64,000 bases of DNA from Prauserella flavalba (GTDB lineage: Bacteria; Actinomycetota; Actinomycetes; Mycobacteriales; Pseudonocardiaceae): positions 1 to 64,000 of the forward strand of contig NZ_MASU01000024.1 of assembly GCF_003202235.1 (NCBI RefSeq), in the 5' to 3' direction. The notes beneath the pieces were generated by a model. That model worked only from the letters and a program-made list of their open reading frames with translations, did not search any database and was not told the origin of the DNA. Below, one piece after another: positions 48,107 through 64,000 of this stretch. Numbering within the stretch: position 1 is the first letter of the stretch; every line of letters begins with the position of its first letter. Position numbers and translations under genes: made by a program.

Positions 48107-48152
48107 CCGGGCCGGTAGCCGACCGCGAAGCGGGGCCCGGCCATCGCGGTCA

Positions 48153-48186
48153 GGAGGGGCCGTCCCTGACGGCCCCTCCGCTTTTC
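48153..48186 (+). terminator. Rho-independent terminator
   Basis: GGAGGGGCCGT (48153-48163) and ACGGCCCCTCC (48169-48179) form a perfect 11-base stem with a five-base loop, followed by GCTTTTCG. It is the clearest terminator in the window. Confidence 0.85.
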
Positions 48187-48259
48187 GCAGCCATGCCTTC
48201 AACCGGCGGCTGTGCCGCGCAGATGACAGATCGAACGACAGCGGACACAGAGGAAAGCC

Positions 48260-48589
48260 ATGCATGCCAAGTCAAATCGCGTACGTCCACTCGGGCCTGT
48301 CGCTATCGACAAACTAGACCCGACGATGTTCGCAGGTGACGGCGAGCCCCGGGACACCGCCAACCAGGACGACATCATTCACGACAACACCCGCAAGGCC
48401 GGATTCGCTGCAACTGCCATCAACGCCTATGCCGCGCAGGTCGGCGGCGGCTACGAGACCTTCCACGCCCTCATGAGCGACTTCTTCGCAGACCTGCACC
48501 ACCTTGCCGACGCCCTCGACATCGATCTCGCCGCCGCCATCAACGACGGCCGGGACGACTACCTCGCCGAGATCGGCTGCGATCGATAG
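48260..48589 (+). CDS. Unknown 109-residue protein
   Basis: The ATG follows GAGGAAAG. The protein is acidic, with DDIIHDNTRKAGFAATAINA, then ETFHALMSDFFADLHHLADA and LDIDLAAAINDGRDDYLAEI. The last part resembles helical segments of all-alpha nucleotide hydrolases, but the catalytic ExxE motif is not clear. I would not assign a function. Confidence 0.68.
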   Translation: MHAKSNRVRPLGPVAIDKLDPTMFAGDGEPRDTANQDDIIHDNTRKAGFAATAINAYAAQVGGGYETFHALMSDFFADLHHLADALDIDLAAAINDGRDDYLAEIGCDR

Positions 48590-48642
48590 CCGCCGAGCAG
48601 CGACAGGCCCGGCGGAAACGGAAGAAAGAAAGGAAAACAGCA

Positions 48643-48849
48643 ATGACCGAAGTGAAACTGACCAAACTCACCAACGATAATGTTCGGGCGCTCAGGGAAA
48701 CGATGAGCAGCGAGCAGGCGGCGAAAGTCCGGCAGGCCCGGCCCCCCGCCGTCGCGGCCGACCGAGACGCCCCGCCAGCATCCCACGTAAGAACCACGAA
48801 GCCGCATCCTGGCCCGTCGGCCGCACGTCGCTCCCGGCCACATCAATGA
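48643..48849 (+). CDS. Small ORF, C-terminus doubtful
   Basis: The first 29 codons (MTEVKLTKLTNDNVRALRET and on to SSEQAAKV) look like real protein behind AAGAAAGG, but from there the frame is Pro/Arg/Ala-rich and reads like out-of-frame sequence. It may be a real short gene ended by a frameshift. Confidence 0.4.
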   Translation: MTEVKLTKLTNDNVRALRETMSSEQAAKVRQARPPAVAADRDAPPASHVRTTKPHPGPSAARRSRPHQ

Positions 48850-48861
48850 CGAACAAAATCC

Positions 48862-48898
48862 GCCTGTGGGGACGGCATCCGATGTCATCCCCACAGGC
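48862..48898 (+). terminator. Hairpin before the 48923 gene
   Basis: GCCTGTGGGGA (48862-48872) and TCCCCACAGGC (48888-48898) are exactly complementary, with a 15-base loop. Confidence 0.7.
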
Positions 48899-48922
48899 CC
48901 GCTGTCCTGATTGGAGATCCGT

Positions 48923-49201
48923 ATGAGCGCCCAAGAATTCCGTATCTCGTGGACATTCATGCAGAAGTTCGCGATGACACTCACGGTGGACGAAGCCCGC
49001 GCCGTCTTCACGCCCGATCCGTCAGCCGTAAACCAAGACGCGGACCGCGCCCGCCAGCAGCTCGCAGTGAGTGCGACGATCGAAGAGCTGCGGGACCTGC
49101 TGCAGAAGAACCCGACTGTTCTCTACGACGCGATGTGTTCTGTGGAGGACGACGAGGTCGAGCACGTGCGCCGCCTCGACAGCATCGAGATCGTCGGGTG
49201 A
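48923..49201 (+). CDS. Unknown 92-residue protein
   Basis: It starts MSAQEFRISWTFMQKFAMTL behind GGAG. It is acidic and helical (DADRARQQLAVSATIEELRD, then LLQKNPTVLYDAMCSVEDDE). It lies six bases before the PAPS-reductase-family gene and is probably co-transcribed with it. Confidence 0.65.
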   Translation: MSAQEFRISWTFMQKFAMTLTVDEARAVFTPDPSAVNQDADRARQQLAVSATIEELRDLLQKNPTVLYDAMCSVEDDEVEHVRRLDSIEIVG

Positions 49202-49207
49202 ACGCGC

Positions 49208-49672
49208 ATGGGCCACCACGACTGTCACGAAAAGACGGATGATCCGGACCTGGCTCGCTACGACATCATTCTGGTGAATTCCAGTGGCGGCAAGGATTCC
49301 CAAGCGATGCTCGACGTCGTCTGCCGCCGCGCGGCTGACGCGGGAGTTCTGGACCGGATCACGGTCCTGCACTGCGCGCTGGGGCGCGTCGAATGGCCAG
49401 GAACCGCGGACCTCGCTAGGCGGCAAGCCCTGCACTACGGCGTCCGATACGAGGAGCGCCACCCAGAGCAGGGAGACCTGCTGACCCAAGCCCGCCAGCG
49501 CGGGCGCTGGCCGTCGGCCACAGCTCGCTACTGCGCCTCTGACCAGAAGCGCGGCCCAGCAAGGAAACTCGTCACGCAGTTAGTCAACGAGCTAGGCACG
49601 ATCAACCGGCCCGCTCAGGTGCTCAACTGCATGGGCCTGCGTGCCCAGGAGTCTCGCGCACGTTTGAAGAAG
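49208..49672 (+). pseudogene. PAPS-reductase/ATP-pyrophosphatase family protein, 5' half
   Basis: 155 codons encode the N-terminal part of a PAPS-reductase-family enzyme. The PP-loop is NSSGGKDSQAMLDVV, followed by ITVLHCALGRVEWPGTADLA and VLNCMGLRAQESRARLKK. After AAGAAG (ending 49672) the sequence changes to unrelated DNA, and the missing 3' half lies at 61369-61680. Codon 155 is complete at the break, so removal of 49673-61368 would restore a 258-residue protein in frame. Members of the family in mobile elements often adenylate or thiolate nucleic acids; the role here is unknown. Confidence 0.88.
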
Positions 49673-49895
49673 TTCCAGCAATGTTGCGCTGGCTGCATCA
49701 CGGGTCCGGCGGGATTTGCCTGTGAGGTGGCGCGTGGCCGGTTCGCGCGACGACCGAGTTCTATCACGTGCCCGCCGTGTTGATCGAGGCGTGGTCCGGA
49801 ACATCGTTTGAGATGGTGTAGCCTGCGCGCTATTGGTGCGTTCGGTGCATCATAGGGGGGCGATCTGGGACGACCTTGGTTGCGGAGGGTGACGA

Positions 49896-51140
49896 TTGGT
49901 CGATGGGGGACGGACTGCGGGCCTCCGCCGTTCCGGCGTGTCGTCTGTTGTGCCTGGGGTTGCCACGTTGCATGTGGTGCCGGGTGTGTCGATGCTGCGG
50001 CCTGCGGAGGCGGTGTTCGAGAAGACCCTGCAAGGGTTCGCTGATCACCAGCGGGCTCGGCGGTTGACGAAGGACACGGTGCGCCAGCGGTTGCGGATGG
50101 CTCGGCAGGTGCAGGGGGTGGCGGACGGCTATCCGTGGGAGCCGGTGTGGAACCGGGGTCTGTTCGATCGGTGGTCGGCGATGCTGGCCGACAGCGTGGC
50201 CACGTCCACGATGCGCAAGTACCAGAACGATCTCGCGCTGTATCTGGCGTATCTGAGTGATCCGGCCTACGAGTGGCCGCAGGTGTGTCAGGGGTTGTTC
50301 GGCAGGTTCAACTCGTTCGCGCTGCGGGATCTGAACGCGGTCCGTCATGCGCAGGAGTACATCGGCAAGCCCAGCGGGAATCGGCCGCTGGCCCGCGAGG
50401 AGATCAAGCGCCTGTTCGGTTCCATGGAACCGGAGATCCGGCGGCTGCGGGCGGAGGGGCACAAGGGCGCGCTGACTGCGGCTCGTGACCTGGCGCTGTT
50501 GACCACGCTGTACGGCTGGGGCCTGCGGCGACGGGAGGCGGCGCGGCTGGAGACGCACGACTGGCGGAGGCAGGCGAAGCTGCCCGAGTTCGGCGACCTG
50601 GCGGCGCTGGCGGTGCGGTGGGGCAAGCCCAGCGCCGGGCAGCCGCCTCGGCGGCGGATGGTGATCTCGGTGTGGCCGTGGGCAGTGCAGACGGTGCAGG
50701 TCTACCTGGAGAACGTCCGCCCGCTGTTCTATGTCGACCGCGAGGACGACGGCGTGATGTTCCCGACCGAGCGCGACGAGATGATCTCGGAACGGGCCGT
50801 CAACCAGCGCTTCCAGCACTGGCGCGAACTGGCGGGCCTGCCGGATCATCTGGGCCCGCACTGCCTGCGGCACACGTACGTGACCAGGCTGATCGAGTCC
50901 GGCTACGACGGGCAGTTCGTCACCGACCAGGTCGGTCACTCCCACTCGGCGACCACGGCGATCTACACGGCGGTCAGCAGCGATTTCAAGAACCTGAAGG
51001 TCCGTGAGCACCTGGACGCGGCGGAGGAAGCCGCGTTGCAACGTGCCTTCGCGATGGCCGAGACGGAGGCGGAGATGGACGACGACTTCAGCGATCACGC
51101 GTCAGGTGAGCCTGCTGGCCGCCGGAGGAGGGTGCGATGA
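49896..51140 (+). CDS. Tyrosine recombinase/integrase
   Basis: A 414-residue tyrosine recombinase. The core-binding domain is MLADSVATSTMRKYQNDLAL. The catalytic residues are visible: Arg in LTTLYGWGLRRREAARL, HxxR in LGPHCLRHTYVTRLIESG, and GHSHSATTAIYTAVSSD with the second His and the nucleophilic Tyr. The N-terminal 32 residues are low in structure, so the ATG at 49992 (MLRPAEAVFEKTLQ) may be the true start. It overlaps the HTH gene by ATGA. It lies 220 bp from the left end of the element and is the likely transposition enzyme. Confidence 0.9.
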   Translation: MVDGGRTAGLRRSGVSSVVPGVATLHVVPGVSMLRPAEAVFEKTLQGFADHQRARRLTKDTVRQRLRMARQVQGVADGYPWEPVWNRGLFDRWSAMLADSVATSTMRKYQNDLALYLAYLSDPAYEWPQVCQGLFGRFNSFALRDLNAVRHAQEYIGKPSGNRPLAREEIKRLFGSMEPEIRRLRAEGHKGALTAARDLALLTTLYGWGLRRREAARLETHDWRRQAKLPEFGDLAALAVRWGKPSAGQPPRRRMVISVWPWAVQTVQVYLENVRPLFYVDREDDGVMFPTERDEMISERAVNQRFQHWRELAGLPDHLGPHCLRHTYVTRLIESGYDGQFVTDQVGHSHSATTAIYTAVSSDFKNLKVREHLDAAEEAALQRAFAMAETEAEMDDDFSDHASGEPAGRRRRVR

Positions 51141-51520
51141 ACGCGGTGTCCCGGCCAGGGCCGGACGAGCAGAACGACGACGTGCAGGCTCGGCAGCCAC
51201 GCTACGAGTGGCGACTGCGGGAGCTGATGGCGGTCCGCAAGAACTGGTACACCACCACGAAGCTGATCCCGGAGTTGCGCAAGTACGGCTTCGAGTTCGA
51301 CCGCAGCTCGATCTATCGCCTCGTCAGCACCGAGCGTCCGCCGAAGATGCCGATCGAGTTGATCCTGGCCCTGTGCAAGATCCTCGATTGCCGGTTCGAG
51401 GACCTGGCGGTGGAGATCGAGCCGCACCCAGCCGTCGAGGAGCCACCGCGCTGCGGCCCGCGGCCGGCCGTGCCGGACATGCCGTTGTTGTCCGCGGACT
51501 TCTTCGACGCCGAGAGCTGA
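51137..51520 (+). CDS. Small Xre/HTH_26-type DNA-binding protein
   Basis: A 127-residue protein with a Cro/C1-like helix-turn-helix over residues 25-95: RLRELMAVRKNWYTTTKLIP, then FDRSSIYRLVSTERPPKMPI and LILALCKILDCRFEDLAVEI. The acidic tail is unstructured. It overlaps the recombinase gene and precedes the zinc-ribbon gene by 19 bp. It may be a directionality factor or repressor for the module. Confidence 0.82.
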   Translation: MNAVSRPGPDEQNDDVQARQPRYEWRLRELMAVRKNWYTTTKLIPELRKYGFEFDRSSIYRLVSTERPPKMPIELILALCKILDCRFEDLAVEIEPHPAVEEPPRCGPRPAVPDMPLLSADFFDAES

Positions 51521-51539
51521 CCGAACACGGGTAACGCAC

Positions 51540-54064
51540 GTGGGGAAAGGGCGAGGTGTCTGCGCCGGCTGCGGACGCGACCGCTCGCTGGTCACCAGCG
51601 GGCTGTGCCATACCTGCTACCACGCCCGCCGGGACAAGGAGACCTGTGTCGGGTGCGGCCGACTGACCGTCCCGATTGGACGCACAACCGAAGGGGCGTG
51701 GTGCCAGAACTGCAACGGAAAGCGCCGCGCCGAACCGTGCTCGCTGTGTGGCCGGTCCGGGCGGGTGGCCGCGCGGCGCGACGGGCAACCGGTGTGTCGG
51801 CGGTGCTGGCAGCGCGAGCGGCGCGTCCCTCAACCATGCTCGGTGTGCGGGCGGACGATGAAAGCCACGAAGAACACCGCTCAGGGCCGGGTCTGCTACA
51901 CCTGCCACCGCAAGACGCTTCCCCGCGAGCCGTGCTGGGTGTGCGGCAAGGTCGTGCTGGCCACCGCCCACACCGAACAGGGAGCGTGGTGCGAGCGGTG
52001 CCGCCGGACGCATCTGGCTGAGCCCTGTTCACGGTGCGGTCAGACAGCACCGGTCACGTCCGCGACGACGAGGAACGGCCGGTGTGCCGGCGGTGCTGGC
52101 AGCGCGAGCATCAGCGGCCTCTGCACCGGTGCGTCGACTGCGGCGAGGACAAGCCGGCGGCGCGGCTCACCGACGAGGGCTCGCTGTGCGAGAAGTGCGA
52201 CAACCGGCGTGCGCCAAAGCTGCTGTGCCCGCGCTGCGGGAAGACCCGCAAGATCGGGATCCTGAGCACCGGTGTCTGCCGGGTCTGCGCCCGGCAAGCC
52301 ATTCCGCGGCGGCCGTGCCGCACCTGCGGCCAGACCCGGTTGGTGGCCTACCGCGACGCCGACGGTGAACCATGGTGTGACCGCTGCCGCCGCCAAGCGC
52401 AGGCGGAACCGTGCTCGGGCTGCGGCGCCCGCAAAGTGGTCTGCGCCCGTGACCACAATGGACCGTGGTGCAAGGCGTGCTGGGAAGCGGTGCGGCCTGG
52501 CCCGCCGTGCACCGACTGCGGGCAACGACCGTCGATGCCTGTGCCCGGTGTGGACGGCGTGGCCAGGTGCGTGCCGTGCTACCTGGCCGCCCAGGTGCCG
52601 TGCGCGCGATGCGGAACCACCGCCCGCGCCGAACGGCATTGGCCGGAAGGCCCGGTCTGCCTGTCCTGTGTGGACGCCGTACGGCTCACGCACGAGCACT
52701 GTCACCGCTGCGGTCAGCTTGCCGGGGCGTTCCGCCGCGAGCCCGCCGGGCCACTGTGCCCGGACTGCGCGGGCGTCACCTTCTCCTACCGCTGCCCGAC
52801 CTGCGGGGCCATGGGCCGTCTGCTGCGCGGCCAGTGCCTGCCCTGCACCGCGCGTCAGGACCTGATCGAGGTGTTCACCCAACCCGACGGGCAATCGGCA
52901 GCCTGGTTGGCGCCGCTGGCCGAGCTGCTGGAGAACTACGACAACCCGTACTCGCTGTGCCTGTATCTGCGCCGGCCCGGCGGACAACTCATCCGCCGGA
53001 TGGTGACCGGCGAACTGGCCTGTTCGCACGAGGCACTCGACGAGCTCCGGCAGACCACCGCGGTGCAGCACCTGCGCGGCCTGCTGGTGCTCGCCGAGAT
53101 CCTCGAACCCCGCGAGGAAGAACTCGCCCAGCTCACCCGCGACGTCCAGACCCTGCTGGCGCGGGTGACCGCCCCGCAGGACAAGACCATCCTGGCTCGC
53201 TACGTCCGGTGGCACCTGATGCCCTTGGCCCACCAGCGCGCCGAACAGGACACCAATTTCACGTACTACCAGCGCGAACACCTCGGGCGGAAGCTGGATG
53301 CTGCCCGGCTGCTGCTGAGCTACCTCCGCACCCGCGGGATCAGCCTGGCCGCCCTGACCCAACCCGTGGTGGACCGCTGGCTGATCCGCAACCGGCCCCG
53401 CCAGCGCTACGCGCGCCCGTTCCTGCTGTGGGCCGCCACCAACGGCCTGGCCCCGGCCCACGTCGCGATCGGCACCTCGGCCCACACCGGCAACCGGGAG
53501 ATCATGAGCGAGACCGACCGCGTCCTGCTCGCCGTCACGCTGGAGACCGACGACACGCTGGCGCTCACCGATCGGGTCGCCGGCTGCCTGGTCCTGCAGT
53601 ACGGACAAAGCTGCTGGCGGCTGGTCAACCTCACCGTCGACGATGTCCTCGCACACCCCGACGAACCCGGCATCCTCGGCCTGCAACTCGGCCGCGACCC
53701 CTTGTGGCTCCGGCCCCGGCTGTCCGCACTCCTGCACCAGCTCGTCACCCACCGCCGCCCGCTCGCCGGCGCGCTGAGGCACCGCCCAACGCCCTACCTG
53801 TTCCCAGGGCTGCGCCACGACCGGCCAATGGCCTCGGCCACGCTTCAGACCCGGCTGCGCAAGCTGGGCGTCCCCAGCGCCCGCACCGCCCGCAACGGCG
53901 CCTGGCTGTCACTGGTCGGCTCGGTCCACTGGAAGATGCTCGCCGACCTGCTCGGCGTCGCCGACACCACCGCCAGCACCTGGCACCGGGAGAACGGCGG
54001 CGACCGCGCCAGCTACGTCGCCAGCCGCCTGCGCCAAGGGCAGAGCATGGCAGGCCCCGAATAA
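51540..54064 (+). CDS. Zinc-ribbon array fused to a degenerate tyrosine-recombinase domain (one frameshift)
   Basis: Two frames join near 52050 into one protein of about 840 residues. The first 440 residues are a long series of CxxC pairs: VCAGCGRDRS, LCHTCYHARR, TCVGCGRLTV, PCSLCGRSGR, VCRRCWQRER, PCWVCGKVVL and many more, about twenty pairs spaced 10-20 residues. The C-terminal 400 residues resemble a tyrosine recombinase: FLLWAATNGLAPAHVAIGTS, LVLQYGQSCWRLVNLTVDDV, then YLFPGLRHDRPMASATLQTR. The catalytic residues appear degenerate (SCWRLV, RTARNGAWLSL, and STWHRENGGDRASY at the Tyr position). The frame change lies in CCGGTCACGTCCGCGACGAC. It may be a sequencing error, a real lesion or programmed frameshifting. 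It may act as an accessory DNA-binding partner of the active recombinase. Confidence 0.7.
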
Positions 54065-54167
54065 CCGGCGGCCCGGTGCGCCCAGGTGGGCCCGGACGAC
54101 ACCGGGGGAAACCGGCGCGAAGTGGCCCCATGTGGTCGGTTTAGACGCCGGATTCGTGGATAGCGGC

Positions 54168-54199
54168 TTGACCTTGCCCCGCGGGCAAGCCCCTACGTT
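54168..54199 (+). promoter_or_regulatory. MerR-type promoter 1
   Basis: TTGACC (54168-54173) and TACGTT (54194-54199) are separated by 20 bp, and CTTGCCC/GGGCAAG forms a perfect dyad in the spacer. The overlong spacer with a central dyad is the hallmark of promoters twisted open by MerR-family activators. It faces the 22-codon ORF at 54289. Confidence 0.82.
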
Positions 54200-54288
54200 C
54201 GGTGGCATCGCGGGTCGGGCGCGCCCCGAGCGGGCGCTGCTCGGTCCGGCACGACAGGCAGATGTTGCGGAACCGAAGGAGGTTGGTG

Positions 54289-54357
54289 ATGGCGGTCGCG
54301 ACCGTGGACGAGACGAACAAGAGCACACGGGCCCGCGTCGCGCCGGACACCGCCTGA
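54289..54357 (+). CDS. 22-residue peptide gene under MerR-type control
   Basis: The ATG at 54289 follows GGAGG. The peptide begins MAVATVDETNKS and ends VAPDTA; it has no Cys or His, so it is unlikely to bind metal. The stop lies inside the terminator stem. Promoter 1 lies 90 bp upstream, so the whole transcript would be about 180 nt. It could be a real peptide, a leader or just part of a small regulatory RNA. Confidence 0.5.
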   Translation: MAVATVDETNKSTRARVAPDTA

Positions 54358-54381
54358 CCCGCAACCGGGTCAGGCGGTGTC
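54346..54381. terminator. Bidirectional terminator between the small ORF and the MerR gene
   Basis: A perfect 15-base stem, 54346-54360 (GACACCGCCTGACCC) with 54367-54381, encloses a six-base loop. It overlaps the last codons of both converging genes; both proteins end in the residues DTA encoded by the two strands of the palindrome. Confidence 0.88.
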
Positions 54382-54780
54382 GGCGGTCTCGATGATGCGG
54401 CAGACGACGGCGTCCTCGCCGCGGCGTTGGCTGTCACGGGCAGCGCGGCGGGCCTCGACCAGGGTCCGGCGCATCGCGCGCAGATCGGAGAGTTTGCGGT
54501 CGATCTCGGCGATGTGGGCGTCGAGCAGGGTGGTGACCCGCCCGCAGGGGGCGGCGCCGCAGCGCTGCAGGTCCAGGATGTCTTTGATCTCGCCCAGGGT
54601 GAGGTCCAGTGCCTTGGCTTGGCGGATGAACCGCAACACGTCCACGTCGTCCCGGCTGAACGTGCGGTACCCGGCGTCGGTGCGTTGGGCGGGCGGCAGC
54701 AGGCCCTTGGACTCCCACAACCGCACTGCCTTGGCGCTGACTCCGGCCGCCTCCGCGGCGGCCCCGACAGTCATCTCCAT
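54370..54780 (-). CDS. MerR-family heavy-metal regulator
   Basis: A 136-residue MerR protein. The N-terminal winged helix is TVGAAAEAAGVSAKAVRLWE, followed by LPPAQRTDAGYRTFSRDDVD. The dimerisation helix starts near ITLLDAH. Cys in LQRCGAAPCGRV (Cys74 and Cys79 from this start) and near the end in VVCRIIE are candidate metal ligands; the pattern differs from CueR, so the metal is uncertain. The ATG at 54780 follows AAGGGA by eight bases. It is divergent from the CopZ-like gene, with promoter 2 between them. Three matching operators in the element suggest it is the activator of all of them. Confidence 0.88.
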   Translation of the reverse strand: MEMTVGAAAEAAGVSAKAVRLWESKGLLPPAQRTDAGYRTFSRDDVDVLRFIRQAKALDLTLGEIKDILDLQRCGAAPCGRVTTLLDAHIAEIDRKLSDLRAMRRTLVEARRAARDSQRRGEDAVVCRIIETADTA

Positions 54781-54810
54781 CACATGGCTCCCTTCCGACG
54801 CACTCCAGTC

Positions 54811-54842
54811 TTGACCTTACCCCTCGGGCAAGGTTCTAGCGT
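54811..54842 (+). promoter_or_regulatory. MerR-type promoter 2
   Basis: TTGACC (54811-54816), a 20-bp spacer and TAGCGT (54837-54842). The dyad CCTTACCC/GGGCAAGG has one mismatch. It lies 49 bp before the CopZ-like start and next to the divergent MerR gene, so it probably controls both. Confidence 0.85.
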
Positions 54843-54890
54843 GATGTCAGCGAGAGAAAGAGCAGCTCAGAAGCGTGGAGGAGTCCCGTG

Positions 54891-55112
54891 ATGGAGTCGT
54901 GGGTGTTGCAGGTTGAGGGGATGTCGTGCAGCGGGTGCGAGCAGCGGATCGGCGCCGTGCTGCGCCGGGTCGACGGCGTGTCCGGCGTCGTGGCCGACCA
55001 CACGTGCGGGCGGGTCGAGGTCCGCGTCGACCCGGCGGTCACCGACCGCACCGTGTTGGTGGAGCGGATCGAGGCCGCCGGCTACCACGTCGCCGAGGAG
55101 GTCTCGCGATGA
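54891..55112 (+). CDS. CopZ-like heavy-metal-associated protein
   Basis: A 73-residue HMA-domain protein with VEGMSCSGCEQRIGAVL (Cys13 and Cys16), a length usual for copper chaperones such as CopZ. It begins at the ATG at 54891 behind GGAGGAG (an adjacent GTG at 54888 is possible) and overlaps the P-type ATPase gene by ATGA. It would deliver Cu(I) or another soft metal to the ATPase. Control is by promoter 2. Confidence 0.9.
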   Translation: MESWVLQVEGMSCSGCEQRIGAVLRRVDGVSGVVADHTCGRVEVRVDPAVTDRTVLVERIEAAGYHVAEEVSR

Positions 55113-57592
55113 GCCTCGTGACCGAAGACCGCCCGCAATTGTGGGCGTCGGAGCCCAGCGCGACGCCGGGCCACGAGCGGATCCGGGCCCGGATCGCCGG
55201 GCTGCACTGCTCGCTGTGCACCGGCACGATCGAGAAGGCCCTGGGCCGGATGGACGGCGTGGACACGGTGGCGGTGAGTCTGACCCACGAACAGGCCCTG
55301 GTCGACTACGACCCGCAGCGTGTCTCGCCGGAGCAGATCCTCGGCACGCTGCGGGATGTCGGCTACGAGCTGTATGACCCGCGCAAGCTGCGCCCGTTCG
55401 AGGAGGAGGAACGCGACCTCGTCCGCGAGGGCGCCAGGTTGCTGGCGGCGATCGCGGCGAGCCTGACTGCGATCGGGTTGATCGCCACCGTGACCGGGAT
55501 CTGGTCGGTGCTGGTGCCCGCGTCGGTGGTGGCGTTGATGGTGCCGTTGTCGTTCGCGTTGCTGCGCCCCGCCGGGAACCTCAAGGCCCTGGCCGGGGCG
55601 GTGGCCATCGTGACGCCCGGCGTGGCGGCGCTGGTGCTGCGGGCGACCGGGGTGCTGGCCGAGCCGCTGATCGGGTGGCTGGCCGGGGTGTTGGCGGTCG
55701 GGGTGGTGGTCGGGGTGGCGCCGCACATCCTGCGGATGGCGTATCAGTCCGCCCGCCGGGGCATCCTCAACCAGCACGTGCTGCTGGAGGTGGGCGCGTT
55801 CGCCGGCATCGCCGGCGGCGTCATCGGCCTCACTGGGGTGCTGCCGGGGTATCCGACGGCGGCGTTCTTCGCGGTGTCGGTGCTGGTGGCGAACTATCAC
55901 ATCTTCTCGGAGTGGTTGTCGCTGCTGGTCAAGACCCGCTCCAGCCAGTCGGTCAAGAAGCTGCTCGATCTGCAACCCGACCTGGCCCGCGTCGTCGACA
56001 CCGACGGCGGCGAATCCGAGGTTCCGGTCGAGGACGTGGCGCTCGGACAAGTGGTGCGGGTGCGGCCCGGCGAGCGCATCCCGCTGGACGGGCGGATCCG
56101 GTCCGGGGCCTCCGCGATCGACCTGTCCCTGGTCACCGGCGAACCAATCCCCGCCGAACGTGGACCTGGCGAGGAGGTCGTCGGTGGGTCGATCAATGGC
56201 ACCGGCAGCCTGCTGATCGAGGTCACCGCCAGCCACACCGAAGGCTTCCTCGCTCAGGTCGTCCGGCACGTCGAAGACGCCCGCGCCCTCAAACCCGGCA
56301 TCCTGCACCTGGTCGACCGGGTGCTGCGCGTCTACACCCCCACCGTGCTCACCATCGCCGCGCTGGCCCTGTTCGGCTGGCTGGCCGGCAGCTGGGCGCT
56401 GGCCGGGGAGCCGGATGTGCGGCGCGCGGTGTTCGCCGCGCTGTCGGTGCTGGTGATGGGCTACCCCTGCGCTGTGGGCATCGCCGCGCCGCTGGCCATC
56501 GTGCGCGGCACCGGCGCCGCCGCCGACCGCGGGATCGTGATGCGCACCGGGGAGGCGTTCCAAACCTTCAGGCTCGTCACGCGGATCGTGCTGGACAAGA
56601 CCGGCACCCTCACCCAAGGTCGCCCCACTGTCCGCACGGTCGATGCCCTCGACGGCGACACCGATGGGCTGCTGGCCGTGGCTGCCGGGGCGGAGGGCCC
56701 GTCGGAGCACCCGCTCGCCCGTGCGGTGGTGACCGCCGCCCGCGAGCGCGGGCTGATCGTGCCCACGGCCGAGGAGTTCGCCTCGGTCACCGGCTCCGGT
56801 GTCCGCGCCACAGTGCACGGCCGGGAAGTGCTGGTTGGCCAGCCCGCGTTCCTCACCGACAACGGCCTTGATCTCACCGCCGTGACCGGGCGGGTCGACC
56901 AGTTGCAGGCCGCCGGGCACACCGTGATCGTGGTCGCCGTGGCAGGCACGGTTGAGGGGTTGATCGCGTTGGGCGACGAGGTGCGCGCCGATGCCGCCGA
57001 GGCCGTGGCGCGCATGCGGGCTGTCGGAATGGACCCGGTCCTGGTGACCGGGGACAACGAACGCGCCGCGCGGCGGGTCGCCGACCAGCTCGGCATCAGC
57101 CAGGTGCGGGCGGGGGTGCGCCCGGAAGGCAAGGCCGAGATCGTGCGCGAGTTGCAGGCCGACGGCACTCGCGTGGCGATGGTCGGTGACGGCATCAACG
57201 ACGCCCCCGCCCTGATGCAGGCCGACGTCGGCGTCGCCGCCGGTGGTGGCACCGACATCGCTGTGGAATCCGCCGACATCGTGCTGCTGCGCGACGAGGT
57301 CACCGCGGTGCTCGACGCCCGCGAGATCAGCGACCGCTCCTACCGCCGCACCCGCACCAACGTGGGGCTGGCGTTCACCCTCAACGGTATCGGTGTCCCG
57401 CTGGCCACCACCGGCCTGGTGTATCCGGTGTGGGCGATGATCGCGATGGCCGCCTCGGTCACCGCCATCTTCCTCAACTCCATCGGCACCCGACCCTCCC
57501 TACTGGTCCAGGCCATCAGCAGCGTCGGTCGGCAAGGACGTCAACACGACGCCGAACAGGCCGAAACAGAACACCAGCGGGCAGCCGCCTAG
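55109..57592 (+). CDS. P1B-type heavy-metal ATPase with YPC motif
   Basis: An 827-residue metal pump. An N-terminal HMA domain carries AGLHCSLCTGTIEKAL (Cys34 and Cys37). About eight membrane helices follow, then the actuator loop LVTGEPIPAERG and the phosphorylation site LDKTGTLTQG (Asp496). The hinge MVGDGINDAPALMQADVGVA is intact. In the metal-path helix the usual CPC or SPC is replaced by MGYPCAVG (Tyr452-Pro453-Cys454), so the transport site has one Cys and may prefer another metal or state than Cu(I). It is coupled to the CopZ-like gene and followed by a thioredoxin gene. Confidence 0.92.
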   Translation: MSLVTEDRPQLWASEPSATPGHERIRARIAGLHCSLCTGTIEKALGRMDGVDTVAVSLTHEQALVDYDPQRVSPEQILGTLRDVGYELYDPRKLRPFEEEERDLVREGARLLAAIAASLTAIGLIATVTGIWSVLVPASVVALMVPLSFALLRPAGNLKALAGAVAIVTPGVAALVLRATGVLAEPLIGWLAGVLAVGVVVGVAPHILRMAYQSARRGILNQHVLLEVGAFAGIAGGVIGLTGVLPGYPTAAFFAVSVLVANYHIFSEWLSLLVKTRSSQSVKKLLDLQPDLARVVDTDGGESEVPVEDVALGQVVRVRPGERIPLDGRIRSGASAIDLSLVTGEPIPAERGPGEEVVGGSINGTGSLLIEVTASHTEGFLAQVVRHVEDARALKPGILHLVDRVLRVYTPTVLTIAALALFGWLAGSWALAGEPDVRRAVFAALSVLVMGYPCAVGIAAPLAIVRGTGAAADRGIVMRTGEAFQTFRLVTRIVLDKTGTLTQGRPTVRTVDALDGDTDGLLAVAAGAEGPSEHPLARAVVTAARERGLIVPTAEEFASVTGSGVRATVHGREVLVGQPAFLTDNGLDLTAVTGRVDQLQAAGHTVIVVAVAGTVEGLIALGDEVRADAAEAVARMRAVGMDPVLVTGDNERAARRVADQLGISQVRAGVRPEGKAEIVRELQADGTRVAMVGDGINDAPALMQADVGVAAGGGTDIAVESADIVLLRDEVTAVLDAREISDRSYRRTRTNVGLAFTLNGIGVPLATTGLVYPVWAMIAMAASVTAIFLNSIGTRPSLLVQAISSVGRQGRQHDAEQAETEHQRAAA

Positions 57593-57670
57593 CGACTACG
57601 CGTCGACGGGCGGGTAGGTCCAGCCGGCCTCCCGCCCGCCATGCACGCCCTGACAGCGAAGGAGCGAGTC

Positions 57671-58003
57671 ATGTCCTCGTTTCCGATCCTCGCCCACGGC
57701 GACATTGCGGCGGCGCTGAACCGGCCCGACTTGGTGCTGCTGGACTTCTGGCAAGCCTCCTGCGCACCCTGCCGAGCGCTGGAGCCCAGGCTGGACGAGT
57801 TCGCACGCGTCCACCCCGGCGAGTTCAGCGGCTACCGCGTCGATGTCGACACCAACCAGGCCACCCCGGCACAGTTCGGAGTGCAGTCCATCCCCACCCT
57901 GGTGCTTTTCCGCGACGGCCGGGAAGTGGCACGGCTGGACGGACTCATCCGTGTGGCCGACCTGGAACAAGCCCTGCGGGATGCACAGACCGGCAACCAG
58001 TGA
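57671..58003 (+). CDS. Thioredoxin-like protein (CAPC)
   Basis: A 110-residue thioredoxin fold. The active site is FWQASCAPCRALEPRL (Cys31 and Cys34), where WCGPC is usual; the cis-Pro region is QSIPTLVLFRDGREV. The ATG follows AAGGAG. It is 78 bp after the ATPase gene and probably in the same operon. It may keep the Cys of the metal-handling proteins reduced. Confidence 0.88.
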   Translation: MSSFPILAHGDIAAALNRPDLVLLDFWQASCAPCRALEPRLDEFARVHPGEFSGYRVDVDTNQATPAQFGVQSIPTLVLFRDGREVARLDGLIRVADLEQALRDAQTGNQ

Positions 58004-58135
58004 GGACGGCCAGCCGCACACCTGGATGCTGGCCCGCTACCTCGTCGCCGGCACACACGATCGGCGCTGGGCCACCGTGGTTCGCGAATCGCACTGTCGG
58101 TTCGACCCGCGTGGGGTGAACGGCCAACCCGCGAG

Positions 58136-58167
58136 TTGACCTTCCCCCGGGGGCAAGCTTCTACGGT
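58136..58167 (+). promoter_or_regulatory. MerR-type promoter 3
   Basis: TTGACC (58136-58141), a 20-bp spacer and TACGGT (58162-58167); the dyad CTTCCCC/GGGCAAG has one mismatch. It precedes the first MFS gene by 120 bp and repeats the architecture of promoters 1 and 2. Confidence 0.82.
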
Positions 58168-58286
58168 CAGCTCGGCAGACACAGCACGGTCAGCGTCACG
58201 GCAACCGGGAGCGGCTCCAGCGGCCGATGCGGTGGCGTGGCGTTGTCGTGGTGGGGAAACAGCAAACGTGCGTAGGGAGAGAACGC

Positions 58287-59716
58287 GTGGATCGGATTCG
58301 GATGAAACCAGCGCCGCGCGGCGCGGTGGCGAGCATCGTCGGGGTGACGTCGGTGGCGACATTCCTGTCCAATCTGAGTTCCACCGGCACCTATTTGGCG
58401 GCACCGGAGATCACGCGGGCCTTGGGGGTGGCTCAGCCCGCCGCGATCGTGACCGTGATCGCCTATCTGGTGCCCTTTGCCGTCGTGATGCCGGTCATCG
58501 CCAAGCTCGGCGATGCCTTCGGGCACAAGCGGCTGCTGCTGGCCGGGCTCGGCCTGTAGCGGCCGGGTCGCTGGCGACCCCCGCGGTCCCGCAGTTCTCC
58601 GCGTTCCTCGCGCTGCGGCTGGTGCAGGGGCTCGGCGGCGGCATCATGCTGGTGTCGATGGTGTTCATCGCCCGTCAGCTCGCCGACCGGCAACGGGAAA
58701 CCGGGTTGGGGATCTGGCGGGCGGCGCTGTTGGCCGGCACCGTCGCCGGCCCGCCGATCGGGGGCTACCTCGCCAGCCTGCTGGGCTGGCAGGCGATCTT
58801 CTGGGTCACCGGGCTGGCCGGCGCCGCCACACTGGGCTGGGCGGCCGTCACGTTGACGGAACTGCCCCGGCAGCGGCGCCGCCGGTTCGACTGGGTCGGC
58901 GCCACCGCGTTCACCGTCAGCTTCTCCGCCCTGGTTGTCGGGCTGGCCGCGGCCGGGTTCCTGCGCACCATGGGCGGCGGTGCCACCACCGGCCCGGTGG
59001 CCGCCCTCAGCTCGCTCGCCCCCGTCTTCCTGGGGATCTTCGTGGTAGGGCTGGCGGTGCTGGTCATCAATCAGCGGGTCAACGCGCAGCCGTTGTTCGC
59101 GTCGTCGCTGTGGCGCAACCGGCAGTTCCTGCTGGGCAACGCGGGCACCTTCCTGGTGTGCGTGGGGATGTTCTCGGCGATGATGTTCACCTCGCTGATG
59201 CTGCGCAACGTGTTCGACCTTCCGGCGGTGCAGGCATCCAACGCGCTGCTGCTCATGACCGTGGGGGCGGTGGTCTTCGGCGTGTGGGGCGGGGCCCTGG
59301 CCGGCCGGTTCGGACCGGGGTTGCCCTGGGCGAGCGGGTTCGTGCTCACCGCAGCCACATTCGTCGCGCTGGCGGTGCTGGTGTCCCCGGTGGCCTCGGC
59401 GGTGTGGCTGTTCGTACTCGCGCCGCTGTCCGGCGCCGGGCAGGGCCTGCCGCTGGGCCCCACCGCGTCGGTCGCGCTCCGCGACGTGCCCGACGAGGAC
59501 ACCGCGGAGGCCACGGGCTGGTTCGACTTCTCCCACAACATCGGCCGCGCCGTAGCCATCGGCGGCCTGGGTGCGCTGTTCGTGCCCGGTGACGCGGCCA
59601 GCTACACCCTCATCTTCTGGGTCAGCGCCACACTCACCGCGCTCGGGGCGGCCCTGGTGCTGGGCATCAAGCGCCCCGCATCCGCTACCCAGGCACAGCC
59701 CGCTGCTGCGACCTGA
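58287..59716 (+). CDS. MFS transporter (14-helix type), one frameshift
   Basis: The GTG at 58287 follows AGGGAG. The first frame gives TSVATFLSNLSSTGTYLAAP and LGDAFGHKRLLLAGLGL, then reaches TAG at 58557-58559. A missing G in CTGTAGCGG would continue it as VAAGSLATPAV, and the second frame runs to 59716 with ALRLVQGLGGGIMLVSMVFI, GWQAIFWVTGLAGAATLGWA and AGQGLPLGPTASVALRDVP. Joined it is about 476 residues with 12-14 helices, like DHA2-type drug exporters. The break may be a sequencing error. It is under promoter 3. Confidence 0.75.
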
Positions 59717-59821
59717 CCCGGCCCGCTTCCGCACCGGTGTTTGCCCCGGCGTGCCGCGCGCGGCGGCGCCGTTGGCTAGGGCAGGCGTGCTGTACAGGAC
59801 AATCAACGCAAAGGAGTGCAG

Positions 59822-61018
59822 ATGTCTGATGAGGTGGTCTCGCCCGCTGCTCCGCGGGGCATGCTGGCGCTGCTGACCACTGCCGCGTTTCTGATCTTCG
59901 CGCAGATCTTCATGGTCGCGCCGATCCTGCCGCGGCTGGCGGAGGTGTTCGACACCGCGCCGGGGTTCGTCGGGCTGGCGGTGCCGGCCTATCTGGTGCC
60001 CTACGGGGCGATGACGCTGGTGTGGGGACCGCTGTCCGACCGCGTCGGTCGGCGCCCGGTCATCCTCGGCTCGCTTGTGGCGTTCATTGCGCTGACCGCC
60101 GCGACCGCGCTGGTCGACAGCGCCGGGGCGTTCATCGCGATGCGGCTGGCCACCGCGATCGGGGCCAGCGGTGTCGTCCCGATCGCGCTGGCCCTCATCG
60201 GTGACCTCGTCCCGTTCCACCGCCGCGGGTACGCCCTGGGCTGGCTCTTCGGCGGCATGGCCGGCGGGATGGCGGCAGGCGCCGCTGGCGGTGCACTCGG
60301 CGCACCCCTCCTCGGCTGGCACGGGCTGTTCCTGACCGCCAGCGTCAGCGGGCTCATGCTGCTGACCGTAGCGCTCGCGGTACTGCCCGCGACTCCCCGG
60401 CCGACCACGGTGCCGCCGCTGCGGGCGGTGGCGGCCGGCTATGTGGCGCTGTTGCGCCACGCGCGGGGACAACGCACCTACGGCTACGTGCTGATCAACG
60501 CCGTGCTGCACTCCGGCATCTACACCTGGCTCGGTGTCTACCTGCACCAGCGGTTCGGTCTCGGCGAGTTGGGCATCGGCCTCACCCTCCTCGGCTACGG
60601 CATCCCTGGGCTGCTGCTCGGCCCCGTCATCGGACGCCTCGCCGACCGCTACGGCCGCGCCCGCATCATCCCCGCTGGGCTCGCTGTCGGCGCCGTCTGC
60701 GCCCTACTGCTGGCCATCCCCCTCCCGCTGCTGGCCGTGCAGGCCAGCATCATCACCCTGTCCCTGGGCTATGACATGACCCAGCCACCCCTCGGTGGCA
60801 TCGTCACCGATCTACCCGGCCACCGGGGGCAGGCCATGGGCCTCAACGTCTTCACCCTGTTCACCGGCATGGGGTTCGGCAGCCTCGCTTTCGAAGCGGT
60901 GTTACTGCCCGGCGGATTCCCCACCGCCCTGCTTGTGTTCGGCGTGGCCGCGGCACTGGGCGCCGCACTCGCCGTCCCCCTCTTCCACACCGAACAACCC
61001 CGTGCCGCTGTCGAGTAG
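59822..61018 (+). CDS. MFS transporter (12-helix type)
   Basis: A 398-residue exporter with about 12 helices: FAQIFMVAPILPRLAEVFDT, the loop motif LVWGPLSDRVGRRPVILGS, and a second half with LLGPVIGRLADRYGRARIIP. The ATG at 59822 follows AAGGAG. It is 105 bp after the first MFS gene and intact. The substrate is unknown; the context suggests metal-linked stress or export of a metallophore or drug. Confidence 0.88.
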   Translation: MSDEVVSPAAPRGMLALLTTAAFLIFAQIFMVAPILPRLAEVFDTAPGFVGLAVPAYLVPYGAMTLVWGPLSDRVGRRPVILGSLVAFIALTAATALVDSAGAFIAMRLATAIGASGVVPIALALIGDLVPFHRRGYALGWLFGGMAGGMAAGAAGGALGAPLLGWHGLFLTASVSGLMLLTVALAVLPATPRPTTVPPLRAVAAGYVALLRHARGQRTYGYVLINAVLHSGIYTWLGVYLHQRFGLGELGIGLTLLGYGIPGLLLGPVIGRLADRYGRARIIPAGLAVGAVCALLLAIPLPLLAVQASIITLSLGYDMTQPPLGGIVTDLPGHRGQAMGLNVFTLFTGMGFGSLAFEAVLLPGGFPTALLVFGVAAALGAALAVPLFHTEQPRAAVE

Positions 61019-61368
61019 GTAATTGTCCCGGCACCACCCAGGCGCAGTGAGCCCAGCCTCGGTGGCGGCAACGCCGGGCTGATGGCCGCCCACCGCGTGC
61101 CTGCAGCCGGCCGCGAGGTCATGGCGAGGCGGGATGAACCGCCGCTCAGGCAAACGCCCTCGACCGTCGCGTTAAGACTCGCGGTCCTCATGGTCGTGGC
61201 AGTGCTACGCGGGCGCGTTACTACTGAGGATCCCGGCCAGAGGCTGACCGCCTCTGTACTTGCGCCCGCAAGCAGAACCCCGAGCGGACCACACGCACGT
61301 GACCAGGAGTCACCGCAGGGTTGGAGCATTCGGCGCGGACGAGCATTGCTCGTTGCCAGCAGGCGAAG
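61019..61368. other. Right end of the inserted element, no gene seen
   Basis: The stretch between the last MFS gene and the rejoining point has no supported gene. It ends ...CAGGCGAAG at 61368. No copy of the left-end sequence (from 49673) longer than a few bases is visible. Confidence 0.5.
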
Positions 61369-61680
61369 CTGAGTCCGGATCACACCGCGAGCAACGGCCG
61401 ACGCGAAGTCAGCACGTGGCTGCCCATCCACGAGTGGACCGAAACGGAGGTATGGCAACACATTCGCGCTAGCGGTGTGCCCTACCACCCCGCTTACGAC
61501 GCCGGAATGACCCGGTTGTCGTGCTCTCTGTGCATTCTCGGGAGCCGCGCGGATCTCCTGCGCGCCGCACGCCTTCGGCCAGACCTTGCGGCCGAGTACG
61601 CACGGATCGAGGACGAGATCGGGCATCGGTTCCGCAACGACATGTCGATGGCGGAGATCATCACCGCCGCAAATCCTTAG
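61369..61680 (+). pseudogene. PAPS-reductase-family protein, 3' half
   Basis: The frame LSPDHTASNGRREVSTWLP, IHEWTETEVWQHIRASGVPY, then HPAYDAGMTRLSCSLCILGS and IGHRFRNDMSMAEIITAANP is the C-terminal half of the protein whose N-terminal half ends at 49672. It includes the conserved SCSLC Cys pair. It lacks its own start; it ends with TAG at 61678-61680. Together the halves make 258 residues. Confidence 0.88.
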
Positions 61681-61725
61681 TGGACAGTTCCTGTTCTGAG
61701 TCCTCCCGAGTTCCGATAGTCCGCT

Positions 61726-61740
61726 GTTCGTATCACGAAC
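61726..61740. promoter_or_regulatory. Palindrome upstream of the DprA-like gene
   Basis: GTTCGT and ACGAAC are separated by ATC. It lies 65 bp before the DprA-like start and could be an operator. The GTTC/GAAC order is the reverse of an actinobacterial SOS box. Confidence 0.35.
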
Positions 61741-61763
61741 GCTGAGAACGATTGAGGTTCGCC

Positions 61764-61805
61764 ATGCCTGCATCCGATGACATCTCCGCGCACGACTTTT
61801 CTTGA
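61764..61805 (+). CDS. Possible 13-residue upstream ORF
   Basis: MPASDDISAHDFS starts at the ATG at 61764, behind GAGG, and its TGA overlaps the ATG of the DprA-like gene. It could couple translation; otherwise it is chance. Confidence 0.25.
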   Translation: MPASDDISAHDFS

Positions 61806-62635
61806 TGCGCGCGACTGAGCCACCCACGCAATCCGTCGGCGCCTACGCCGCAGTCCACGGCCCAGTGGAGGCCGCCGACCGCATCCGCGCCGGTTGTGCA
61901 CCCCCGGCGGTGCTCGCCGAGGTCGCACAGCCTGAACCCGATCTACGCGACGACCTCGCCGCACTCGAGGCGGGGCATGCCAGGCTGCTCACCCCCGAGG
62001 ACGACGACTGGCCGAACGCGGCGGCGCACGACCTGGCCGCCTCCGGCACGGGAGCGCCGCTGGGCCTGTGGGTGTGCGGTGACCCGCAGCTCGGAGTCCT
62101 CACCGCTGGACCGGTGGCCGTGGTCGGCTCGCTGGCTGCCAGCCCGTATGGCGAGTACGTCGCTGCGGAACTCGGGCAAGGCGTCGCCGATCGGGACATC
62201 GCCATTGCCAACGGTGCCGGGTTCGGGGTCGAAGCGCACGCGCTGCGGGGTGCCCTGAGCACCTCCGGACGCGGCCGGTGCCTTGTCGTGCTGGCGTGCG
62301 GTATCGATGTCGGCTACCCCGCCGACCACGGTCCGCTCTTGCGGGAGATCACCGACTCCGGCGGAGTGCTGGTCACCGAGTACCCCCTTGGCACGAAACC
62401 TCGCCGCACTCGTGGCTACGCACGGCAACGCCTGGTCGCCGCGCTGAGCGAGGCCACGGTGATCGTCGAGGCCGGCCGACGCAGCCCGGCCCTGGCTGTA
62501 GCGCGTACGGCGTCGAGGCTCGGCCGCCGCGTCTACGCGGTCCCCGGACCGGTCACCTCGGCGACGTCGGCTGTTGACCGGACTACTGAGCGACACGCCG
62601 ACCAGGCGTACACGTGGCTGATCTCTAGCCGGTAG
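61805..62635 (+). CDS. dprA: DprA/Smf-like protein
   Basis: A 276-residue Rossmann-fold protein. Matches to DprA include VAVVGSLAASPYGEYVAAEL, GFGVEAHALRGAL, CLVVLACGIDVGYPADHGPL, VLVTEYPLGTKPRRTRGYAR, and the ending GRRVYAVPGPVTSATS. DprA loads RecA on single-stranded DNA in transformation; the versions on mobile elements probably protect or process incoming DNA. The conserved G(S/A)R is GSL here, and the usual first helical domain is short. It overlaps the tiny upstream ORF and is 28 bp from the recombinase gene. Confidence 0.8.
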   Translation: MRATEPPTQSVGAYAAVHGPVEAADRIRAGCAPPAVLAEVAQPEPDLRDDLAALEAGHARLLTPEDDDWPNAAAHDLAASGTGAPLGLWVCGDPQLGVLTAGPVAVVGSLAASPYGEYVAAELGQGVADRDIAIANGAGFGVEAHALRGALSTSGRGRCLVVLACGIDVGYPADHGPLLREITDSGGVLVTEYPLGTKPRRTRGYARQRLVAALSEATVIVEAGRRSPALAVARTASRLGRRVYAVPGPVTSATSAVDRTTERHADQAYTWLISSR

Positions 62636-62663
62636 AACACGTGCAGCTTATGAAGGAGGCTGC

Positions 62664-63905
62664 GTGAGTCCGGTGGATGGAGCTGAGCGCGATTTGGGGT
62701 CGCTTCGTTTACCTCGGTGGGGGCGGGTCGTCGCTGTCGAAGGCGTGGTGCCGTGGTTGCTGCTGGATCCGAGCGGCACGGCGGTGGAGCCCGTCGAGCG
62801 GTTCCTGCGGGATTTCGCGACGCGTAACCGGCCTGCGTCGGTGCGTAGCTATGCCTATGACCTGCTTCGCTGGTGGCGTTGGTTACAGGTCGTGGACGTC
62901 GCGTGGAACCAAGCCACTCCCGCCGAGGTGCGGGACTTGGTGCTGTGGATGAAGCAAGCCGCGAAGCCTCGCCGATCACCGAGGACGGTGTCGGCATCGA
63001 TCGCGGGCACGGTCAACCCCATCACGCGCAAGCGATATCTCGGCGATCAGTACGAACCGACCACGGTCCGGCACTCGAATGCCGTGCTGCGCAGCTTCTA
63101 CGATTTCTGGTTAGACGTCGGCGAAGGACCGTTGATCAACCCGGTGCCACTTCACCGCGCGCCTGGTCGCCGCCCGCACGAGCATCACAATCCGCTGAAA
63201 CCATTCCGCCCCGAAGGTCGGTTGCGTTACAACCCGAGTCTGGCCAAGCGCAAGCCGCGAGCGATGCCTGACGGTCAGTGGAACGAACTGTTTGCCGGAC
63301 TGCGGTCCAATCGGGACCGCGCGATCGTGGCGTTGGCGATCAGCAACGGGGCCCGCGCTGCCGAACTCCTCGGCGTTCGAGGAGTCGACCTCGACTGGGG
63401 CGACCAGCTGATCCGAGTGGTTCGCAAAGGGACTCACGTCGAGCAGTGGCTGCCGGCCAGCCCGGAGGCGTTCGTCTGGCTCCGCCTCTATCTCGCTGAC
63501 CTCGGCGTTGCGCTGGAGCCGAACGAACCGATATGGCGGACACTGCGTCGCCGTGACCACGGTGATGGGCTACGCAGGCAGCCGCTGAATTATGAGGCGC
63601 TGCGGGCGGTGTTCCGGCGACTCAATGTCCTGCTGGGAACTAACTGGTCGATGCACGATCTGCGGCACACCGCAGCGATCCGGATGAGCCGCGACGGTTC
63701 GTTGTCCATGCGAGACGTGCAGATCATTCTCGGTCACGCTCACCTGTCGACCACCGCCGACGTGTATCTGATCGAGGACGAGGATCAGGTGATCAGCCGC
63801 GTCGCGCAACACCTGGCAACCCGCGATCATCGCGAACCGCCAGCGCCGGTGACGACCGGCTACGCCGACGCAGATCTGTCCGTGTTGTTCGGGAGGTCAT
63901 TGTGA
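62664..63905 (+). CDS. Tyrosine recombinase/integrase, second module
   Basis: A 413-residue tyrosine recombinase unrelated in detail to that at 49896. The core-binding domain is RFLRDFATRNRPASVRSYAY. The catalytic residues are Arg in ALAISNGARAAELLGVRGVD, HxxR in MHDLRHTAAIRMSRDG, and LGHAHLSTTADVYLIEDED with His and Tyr. The GTG at 62664 follows AAGGAGG. It overlaps the next gene by GTGA. It marks the start of another mobile element that runs past the right edge. Confidence 0.9.
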   Translation: MSPVDGAERDLGSLRLPRWGRVVAVEGVVPWLLLDPSGTAVEPVERFLRDFATRNRPASVRSYAYDLLRWWRWLQVVDVAWNQATPAEVRDLVLWMKQAAKPRRSPRTVSASIAGTVNPITRKRYLGDQYEPTTVRHSNAVLRSFYDFWLDVGEGPLINPVPLHRAPGRRPHEHHNPLKPFRPEGRLRYNPSLAKRKPRAMPDGQWNELFAGLRSNRDRAIVALAISNGARAAELLGVRGVDLDWGDQLIRVVRKGTHVEQWLPASPEAFVWLRLYLADLGVALEPNEPIWRTLRRRDHGDGLRRQPLNYEALRAVFRRLNVLLGTNWSMHDLRHTAAIRMSRDGSLSMRDVQIILGHAHLSTTADVYLIEDEDQVISRVAQHLATRDHREPPAPVTTGYADADLSVLFGRSL

Positions 63906-64000
63906 CCACAGCCACGAACGCGACGCACACGTCCGCCAGCCCGCTCGGCCGGCATCGCATGCACGACTACCAGCATCTGCTCACCCGCCATCGCGTCGGG
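63902..64000 (+). CDS. Second gene of the right-edge recombinase module (partial)
   Basis: A frame opens at the GTG at 63902, behind GGGAGG and overlapping the recombinase stop, and stays open to the window end (33 codons). It reads RMHDYQHLLTRHRVG near the edge. Too little is visible to name it; by analogy with multi-gene recombinase modules it may be a further recombinase or accessory protein. Confidence 0.55.
   Translation, partial: MTTATNATHTSASPLGRHRMHDYQHLLTRHRVG

Follow-up and report, generated by a model that had tools for sequence, protein, structure and literature searches.

The first 64,000 bases of contig NZ_MASU01000024.1 of Prauserella flavalba (hereafter the window; the contig, C24, has 75,624 bases and the genome 8.09 Mb) contain a gene of the PAPS-reductase family that is split by an inserted element of 11,690 bp. 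The element has a tyrosine-recombinase module of three genes at its left end, followed by cargo genes, and it is bounded by short terminal arms (Table 1).

The interrupted gene and its empty site

Both halves of the gene fall in adjoining ranges of the 175 positions of the PF01507 (PAPS_reduct) profile, which therefore spans the break. The left half covers positions 3-119 (19.1 bits, below the cut-off of 22.5) and the right half, taken from 61369, covers 131-172 and exceeds the cut-off. The corresponding ranges in phrog_424 are 159-288 and 295-375. Together with an intact, uninterrupted homologue in genome G046, which matches the left half at 93.5% and the right half at 97.1%, these results confirm the original prediction that the frames 49208-49672 and 61369-61680 are the N- and C-terminal parts of one PAPS-reductase-family protein. 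Several PAPS-reductase paralogues exist in these genomes; a second one, broken and in pieces, lies at G000:C12:271140-271482, and a similar copy is found in G161.

Among 297 genomes of the family (E up to 0.001), 35 have a match to the left half and 44 have one to the right half. Fourteen intact homologues were examined, namely that of G046 and thirteen at 53-81%, some of which may be near-copies of each other (L034 and L036 have similar scores). Exactly six bases separate the end of codon 155 from the codon matching window position 61369 in all 14; in the window these bases are GCGAAG at 61363-61368, that is two codons (A-K). Remote homologues (L047, L048, L049, L051-L055 and L057), in which the left half is only 36-51% identical, were left out of the 14 because they do not align codon by codon; their spacing is 6 bases in L048 and L055 and -6 to 96 in the others. 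Also outside the 14 are fragments that stop short of the site (G000:C12, G161), occupied or decayed copies (L033, L045, L056) and a 5'-truncated copy in G175:C6 (spacing 6 bases).

The DNA of G046 (locus L124) is largely colinear with the contig: 98.0% over 42241-48733, 95.6% over 48849-49671, 97.3% over 61363-62568 and 94.0% over 66369-73548. Colinearity is broken by about 250 bases found only in L124 near 48733, by about 50 bases found only in the window near 48800, and by an insertion at 62569-66365. Positions 48849-49671 of C24 correspond to L124 6808-7627, and 61363-62568 to L124 7629-8835, with one base between the matches of 49671 and 61363. This base is A; the window has a G at both junctions. 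The insert is therefore 11,690 bp long and the interrupted protein has 260 residues. Two sets of coordinates are given for the insert because both junction bases are G, one G being shared; the sequences of relatives favour 49672-61361.

The empty site, together with the catalytic set of TnpA described below, bears out the earlier view that a tyrosine-recombinase element was inserted in a formerly intact gene, and the uninterrupted homologues that had been proposed as a check do span the junction (G046 and 13 others). The element had been placed at 49673-61368. The right end given there lies 6 bp too far, since all 14 intact homologues place 61363-61368 in the gene; the 258-residue product of a 49672/61369 join lacks the two residues (A-K) that all 14 have. 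The GAAG on both sides, taken as a junction signature, is pre-existing target sequence. As a duplicated junction it was rejected: both copies stand in the empty G046 site, and the right copy is absent in the insertion of Amycolatopsis sp. 2-2. The G046 site and the 14 homologues indicate a fixed target without target-site duplication, with exceptions in the target that are given below.

The presence of several paralogues could suggest that the split is no site-specific insertion and that two paralogous PAPS-reductase genes were brought together, either through homologous recombination or in the assembly. We regard this as extremely improbable, since both flanks match one insert-free backbone (G046) and the same junctions occur in two assemblies: the nearest named record, Prauserella endophytica NZ_SWMS01000023, carries the same insertion and differs from window 40026-64000 at 5 places. 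The two assemblies and the empty relative rule out an assembly artefact. Neither an Rfam family nor a tRNA was found in the window.

Table 1. Features of the interrupted gene, the inserted element and its surroundings (window coordinates).
Feature	Position	Strand	Evidence
N-terminal part (codons 1-155) of interrupted PAPS-reductase-family gene	49208..49672	+	PF01507 3-119 (below cut-off); phrog_424; 93.5% to G046
Inserted element, 11,690 bp	49673..61362 or 49672..61361	.	empty site in G046; attL/attR pairs in relatives
Left terminal core arm, G TT CCAGCAATG (CGAGCAATG in most relatives)	49672..49683	+	directly inside left junction of relatives
TnpA, tyrosine recombinase, complete R-K-H-R-H-Y set; alternative start 49974	49896..51140	+	PF00589 5e-22
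Small helix-turn-helix protein (HTH_26); start overlaps tnpA stop	51137..51520	+	PF13443; 9 relatives aligned, 31-93% identity
Zinc-ribbon protein; C-terminal part with predicted tyrosine-recombinase fold, without canonical motif	51540..54064	+	DZR_2 below cut-off; fold by model
MerR-family regulator (CueR/CadR-like, below equivalog cut-offs)	54370..54783	-	profile matches
Small heavy-metal-associated (HMA) domain protein	54888..55112	+	PF00403 3.5e-14
Heavy-metal P1B-type ATPase, N-terminal HMA domain	55109..57592	+	TIGR01525 1e-159, TIGR01511 3e-127, both over cut-off
Thioredoxin-like protein	57641..58003	+	PF00085
Major facilitator superfamily (MFS) transporter, frame broken near 58,560-58,620 (also in P. 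endophytica)	58227..59716	+	MFS_1 in both pieces
MFS transporter, Bcr/CflA-like (below curated cut-offs)	59816..61018	+	profile match
Right terminal core arm, CATTGCTCG TTG + hexamer CCAGCA	61344..61361	+	right junctions
C-terminal part of the same PAPS-reductase-family gene, including the two codons GCGAAG	61363..61680	+	PF01507 131-172; 6-base spacing in 14/14 intact homologues
Separate second insertion, in dprA-like gene of the same backbone	62569..64000, on to about C24:66365	.	absent in colinear backbone of G046

The three-gene module and the ends of the element

The recombination module at the left end of the element consists of three genes and not of one, a point that goes beyond the original prediction. 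In TnpA, residues R211, K244, H322, R325, H348 and Y357, which we take to be the catalytic ones, are invariant in 9/9 aligned sequences; by these residues TnpA would correspond to the short tyrosine recombinase of Tn554 with its RHRY set. The HTH_26 protein occupies the middle position, between tnpA and the gene of the large zinc-ribbon protein. The frame of the large protein is broken between 51540-52265 and 52034-54064, equally in P. endophytica, and the window copy may therefore not move by itself. The gene is open in all five relatives that were checked (L012, L014, L119, L126, L128); tnpA is also open in L012, L014 and L119 and broken in L126. Of 394 genomes of the class, 57 have a relative of this third protein, as do 232 of 72,556 plasmid records. 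A remnant of the large zinc-ribbon protein, in frame with an unrelated TetR-like N-terminus, was seen at G000:C36:20536-23115 (L168).

With the thresholds applied, no family of Pfam, NCBIfam or PHROGs matched the C-terminal part of the large protein. For the copy in the window, the 417 residues of this part were modelled with AlphaFold2 together with 29 relatives (pLDDT 83.4, pTM 0.48). The best 38 PDB matches of the model are all tyrosine recombinases (XerA, Tn1549 Int, lambda Int, Cre and others), with a best E of 1.9e-5 and 14 matches at E up to 0.001. The model shows that the protein has a predicted tyrosine-recombinase fold without the canonical motif. None of the 28 rows of the alignment that reach the expected place of the nucleophile has a tyrosine there (23 have tryptophan; 2 of the 30 rows are truncated), and the histidine of HxxR is not conserved, with H at column 359, two before R361, in 2/30. 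The model thus predicts the fold expected of the long second recombinase of Tn554, and its canonical RHRY set is not seen in the alignment.

Long inverted repeats had not been noticed earlier, and no search aimed at them was made; the short terminal arms CCAGCAATG (49675-49683) and CATTGCTCG (61344-61352) are complementary at 8/9 bases in the window and at 9/9 in A. acididurans. The sequence CGAGCAATG lies just inside the left junction in L012, L014, L015, L016, L017 and L018, with variants in L019, L056 and L119. In most relatives the left end has the form [G or C]TTCGAGCAATGTTGC, and the right end comes near to CATTGCTCGNNGCCAGCA; the ends of G266 are more divergent. The deduced joint of a circular form would be CATTGCTCG-TTG-CCAGCA-GTT-CGAGCAATG, in which the 9-base arms are symmetric about 6 bases and the left arm of the window has 1 mismatch. 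In the two pairs that have a near empty homologue (A. acididurans against G046, and Amycolatopsis sp. 2-2 against L028), attL has the element base (G) and attR the target base (A); the crossover therefore lies just left of that base.

The hexamers on the two sides behave differently. The left-flank hexamers vary (GAAGAA, ACGGAA, GAGGAA, CGGGAA, CAAGCT and GCGGGA, in a list without the AATCGT of relict L017), whereas the right hexamer is CCAGCA in 9 of 10 distinct right ends and GCAGCA in one (G266). The ten do not include a right-end-like site at G012:C8:51390, which lies beside a fragmented right half. This bears on whether the element is an ordinary one of the Tn554 type or of the type of the strand-biased circularizing integrative elements (SE), in which each move copies the 6 bp at the right end from the sequence to the left of the donor site (PMC10214605). 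The layout is the same: the recombinase genes stand at the left, there is cargo, and the ends are short and imperfect with a 6-bp spacer. The integration geometry, too, is as described for SEs and Tn554 (PMC10214605), and near-invariant residues of the large protein, R361 and Y402, could be a motif in keeping with such elements. The canonical motif that the same source reports for TnpA/TnpB of Tn554 and IntA/IntB of SE is not seen in the large protein, as the counts for histidine and tyrosine given above show. Moreover, the attR hexamer is nearly constant despite the differing left-flank hexamers; judged from attL and attR, with a biased search pattern for 3/10 right ends, it does not appear to derive from the donor's left flank. 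We therefore consider an ordinary Tn554- or SE-type element rather unlikely, though it is the alternative to be taken most seriously.

Reuse of the landing site within probable conjugative elements

Element ends of the same kind were found in other genomes, in occupied sites at the same position, which was the second check proposed for the insertion. Both junctions are present in the window and P. endophytica, in Amycolatopsis sp. 2-2 (L126, 12.5 kb), in G266 (L119, 10.7 kb), in A. acididurans (L012 and L129, on two contigs and paired by sequence), in Streptomyces NRRL B-24484 (two contigs) and in Streptomyces sp. LBL, where the insert has 3.2 kb and a tnpA fragment only. Only the left junction was found for a second A. 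acididurans copy (L014) and for G113, and only the right junction for G012 and the L020 group; the site in G066 is decayed. Six named species of Amycolatopsis, Prauserella and Saccharopolyspora share the right part of the L020 group almost unchanged (99.97% identity or more). Seven family genomes have that right end, and in none of them was a left half assigned to it, the left halves of P. endophytica belonging to other loci. Full-length TnpA loci of at least 74% identity in the 297 family genomes (the window, the P. endophytica copy, two in G262, apparently A. acididurans itself, and one in G266) stand beside a PAPS gene in 5/5 cases. Related elements that differ in cargo have landed repeatedly at this position, which goes beyond the original prediction.

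The cargo of the window is listed in Table 1. That of G266 includes MerB, an ArsR-type regulator and a pyridine-nucleotide-disulphide oxidoreductase, which is presumably mercuric-reductase-like. L126 carries MMPL and MFS genes, and L020 carries DabA and dihydroxy-acid dehydratase. The names of other cargo genes come from sequence only, as do those of two further sets: genes resembling isocitrate dehydrogenase, enoyl reductase and dethiobiotin synthetase in L020 1-9419 and L021-L025, and an ArsR-like regulator with a mercuric-reductase-like gene at window 4137-6085, which resemble the cargo of G266.

Downstream of the element, C24 encodes Replic_Relax, a coupling-protein-like ATPase, a TraC/TraG-like ATPase and PrgI; T2SSE/T2SSF genes lie upstream. 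The distance between PrgI and the PAPS-type gene is about 10-17 kb on C24 and at six further loci (G046, G266, G002 C16 and C20, G108 and G192) in five other genomes chosen by hand. For the broken paralogue at G000:C12, the nearest PrgI is 56 kb away. The genes of the type IV secretion type and the proximity of PrgI therefore support a transposon within a conjugative element, in agreement with the earlier proposal that the element is nested in another mobile element. The larger host DNA element is probably self-transmissible.

Disruption of a conserved gene of a conjugative element is also the strategy of the integrative and mobilizable elements (IMEs) in conserved genes of integrative and conjugative elements (ICEs) of Firmicutes (PMC5704250), and the insert could be an IME that hijacks conjugation itself. 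This is very unlikely, since no relaxase or transfer gene was recognised among the scanned gene products inside the element.

The same backbone carries the second insertion, of about 3.8 kb, with tyrosine-recombinase genes of 413 aa and 740 aa. It is absent from G046, G266 and A. acididurans.

We consider it likely that the element is a tyrosine-recombinase transposon which carries cargo, is site-specific and lands by preference at one position in a PAPS-reductase-family gene of Pseudonocardiaceae conjugative elements. Several results weigh against parts of this reading. As to the target, the close relative in Streptomyces sp. NBC_01214 (L128; TnpA at 80%) lies within the gene of an ABC-transporter ATPase (PF00005), the relict of NRRL S-350 (L017) is a mosaic outside any PAPS gene, and the TnpA relatives at about 61-68% (L133, L134, G223) have no PAPS half nearby; the target arms, moreover, have no visible match to the element arms. 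As to the right hexamer, three of the ten right ends (L091, L103, L105) came from a search whose pattern included GCCAGCA, which biases it toward a constant hexamer; the other seven were found by protein, and six of these have CCAGCA. As to the large protein, the pTM of the model is 0.48, its best 38 matches have TM-scores of 0.27-0.38 by query length and rmsd of 7-16, and its profile does not match the TnpA profile significantly (hhalign probability 0.2, E 0.3). R361 is kept in 30/30 rows and Y402 in 27 of the 28 that reach that place; a non-canonical active site, and with it a catalytic role, is therefore possible, and the description of the large protein as 'catalytically dead' is weakened by these alignments. 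In L017, the mosaic tnpA (8410-9541) has its N-terminal part from this clade and its C-terminal part from another.

Proposed mechanism and comparison with known elements

We infer that the element moves. TnpA would cut and join DNA at a core in which two 9-bp arms flank a 6-bp spacer. The large partner, aided by its zinc ribbons, may bind the core or the target, and the HTH protein may be an accessory or directionality factor. Both proteins together would assemble the core and choose the target; the zinc-ribbon partner itself may make this choice. After circularising, the element would reinsert into this gene on a conjugative element, either an incoming or a resident one, and it would spread between genera by riding such elements. 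On integration, the target hexamer would stay in attL and the element's own hexamer (CCAGCA) would go to attR. Since the attR hexamer is nearly constant, excision should keep this hexamer too, and if the constancy holds, the clade differs from SE and Tn554 at the excision step.

More tentatively, and with somewhat less than even confidence, we propose a distinct clade of three-gene transposons, composed of an active tyrosine recombinase, an HTH protein and a zinc-ribbon recombinase-fold partner with a non-canonical or empty active site. For these transposons, a single position in a gene conserved among conjugative elements would serve as a cargo bay that can be used again, with copper, mercury, efflux or metabolic cargo being swapped, with a polarity that keeps their own 6-bp spacer and not that of the host. 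The empty and occupied sites suggest that actinobacteria exchange metal-resistance and other cargo via a fixed slot in conjugative elements. A limited search of open-access text did not find this insertion site.

Tn554 and Tn554-related actinobacterial elements have been described by Van Houdt et al. 2012 (PMC3414803). These resemble the present element in having a short tyrosine recombinase beside a related protein of unusual length (611-828 aa in their case, and about 805-841 aa for the open relatives here), in occurring on actinobacterial plasmids and chromosomes, in the lack of target duplication and, for Tn554, in a fixed site. They differ in that an HTH gene lies between the two genes here, with no TnpC listed for their Famint36/41 type, and in that the long protein here has zinc ribbons and lacks the canonical motif and the right hexamer is nearly constant. 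None of the accessions in the table of PMC3414803 is among the matches listed, and kinship with those pairs was judged by description.

SEs (PMC10214605) likewise pair an active tyrosine recombinase with a protein of the same fold that lacks the canonical motif (Tfp), and they have a 6-bp spacer between inverted arms, the target hexamer in attL and no recognised transfer genes. Unlike the element here, they have four genes (intA-tfp-intB-srap, against three module genes here) with two active recombinases, their circle takes the left-flank hexamer, and they occur mainly in Gammaproteobacteria. The GInt genomic islands (PMC5385486) share a recombination operon at one end, variable cargo, a small accessory protein and a target that is reused; however, their ginABCD operon encodes three integrase-like proteins and GinD, where only two tyrosine-recombinase-fold proteins are predicted here, and they have imperfect direct repeats of 10-11 nt. 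The IMEs of PMC5704250 also insert into conserved genes of conjugative elements, but they use mobilisation functions (oriT, relaxase), none of which was recognised among the scanned products here. Together, these comparisons place the element nearest to Tn554, SE and GInt, as a variant that departs from each in at least one of the features compared. Its defined core site and three-gene module offer a handle on why elements of the Tn554, SE and GInt type need a second recombinase-like partner.

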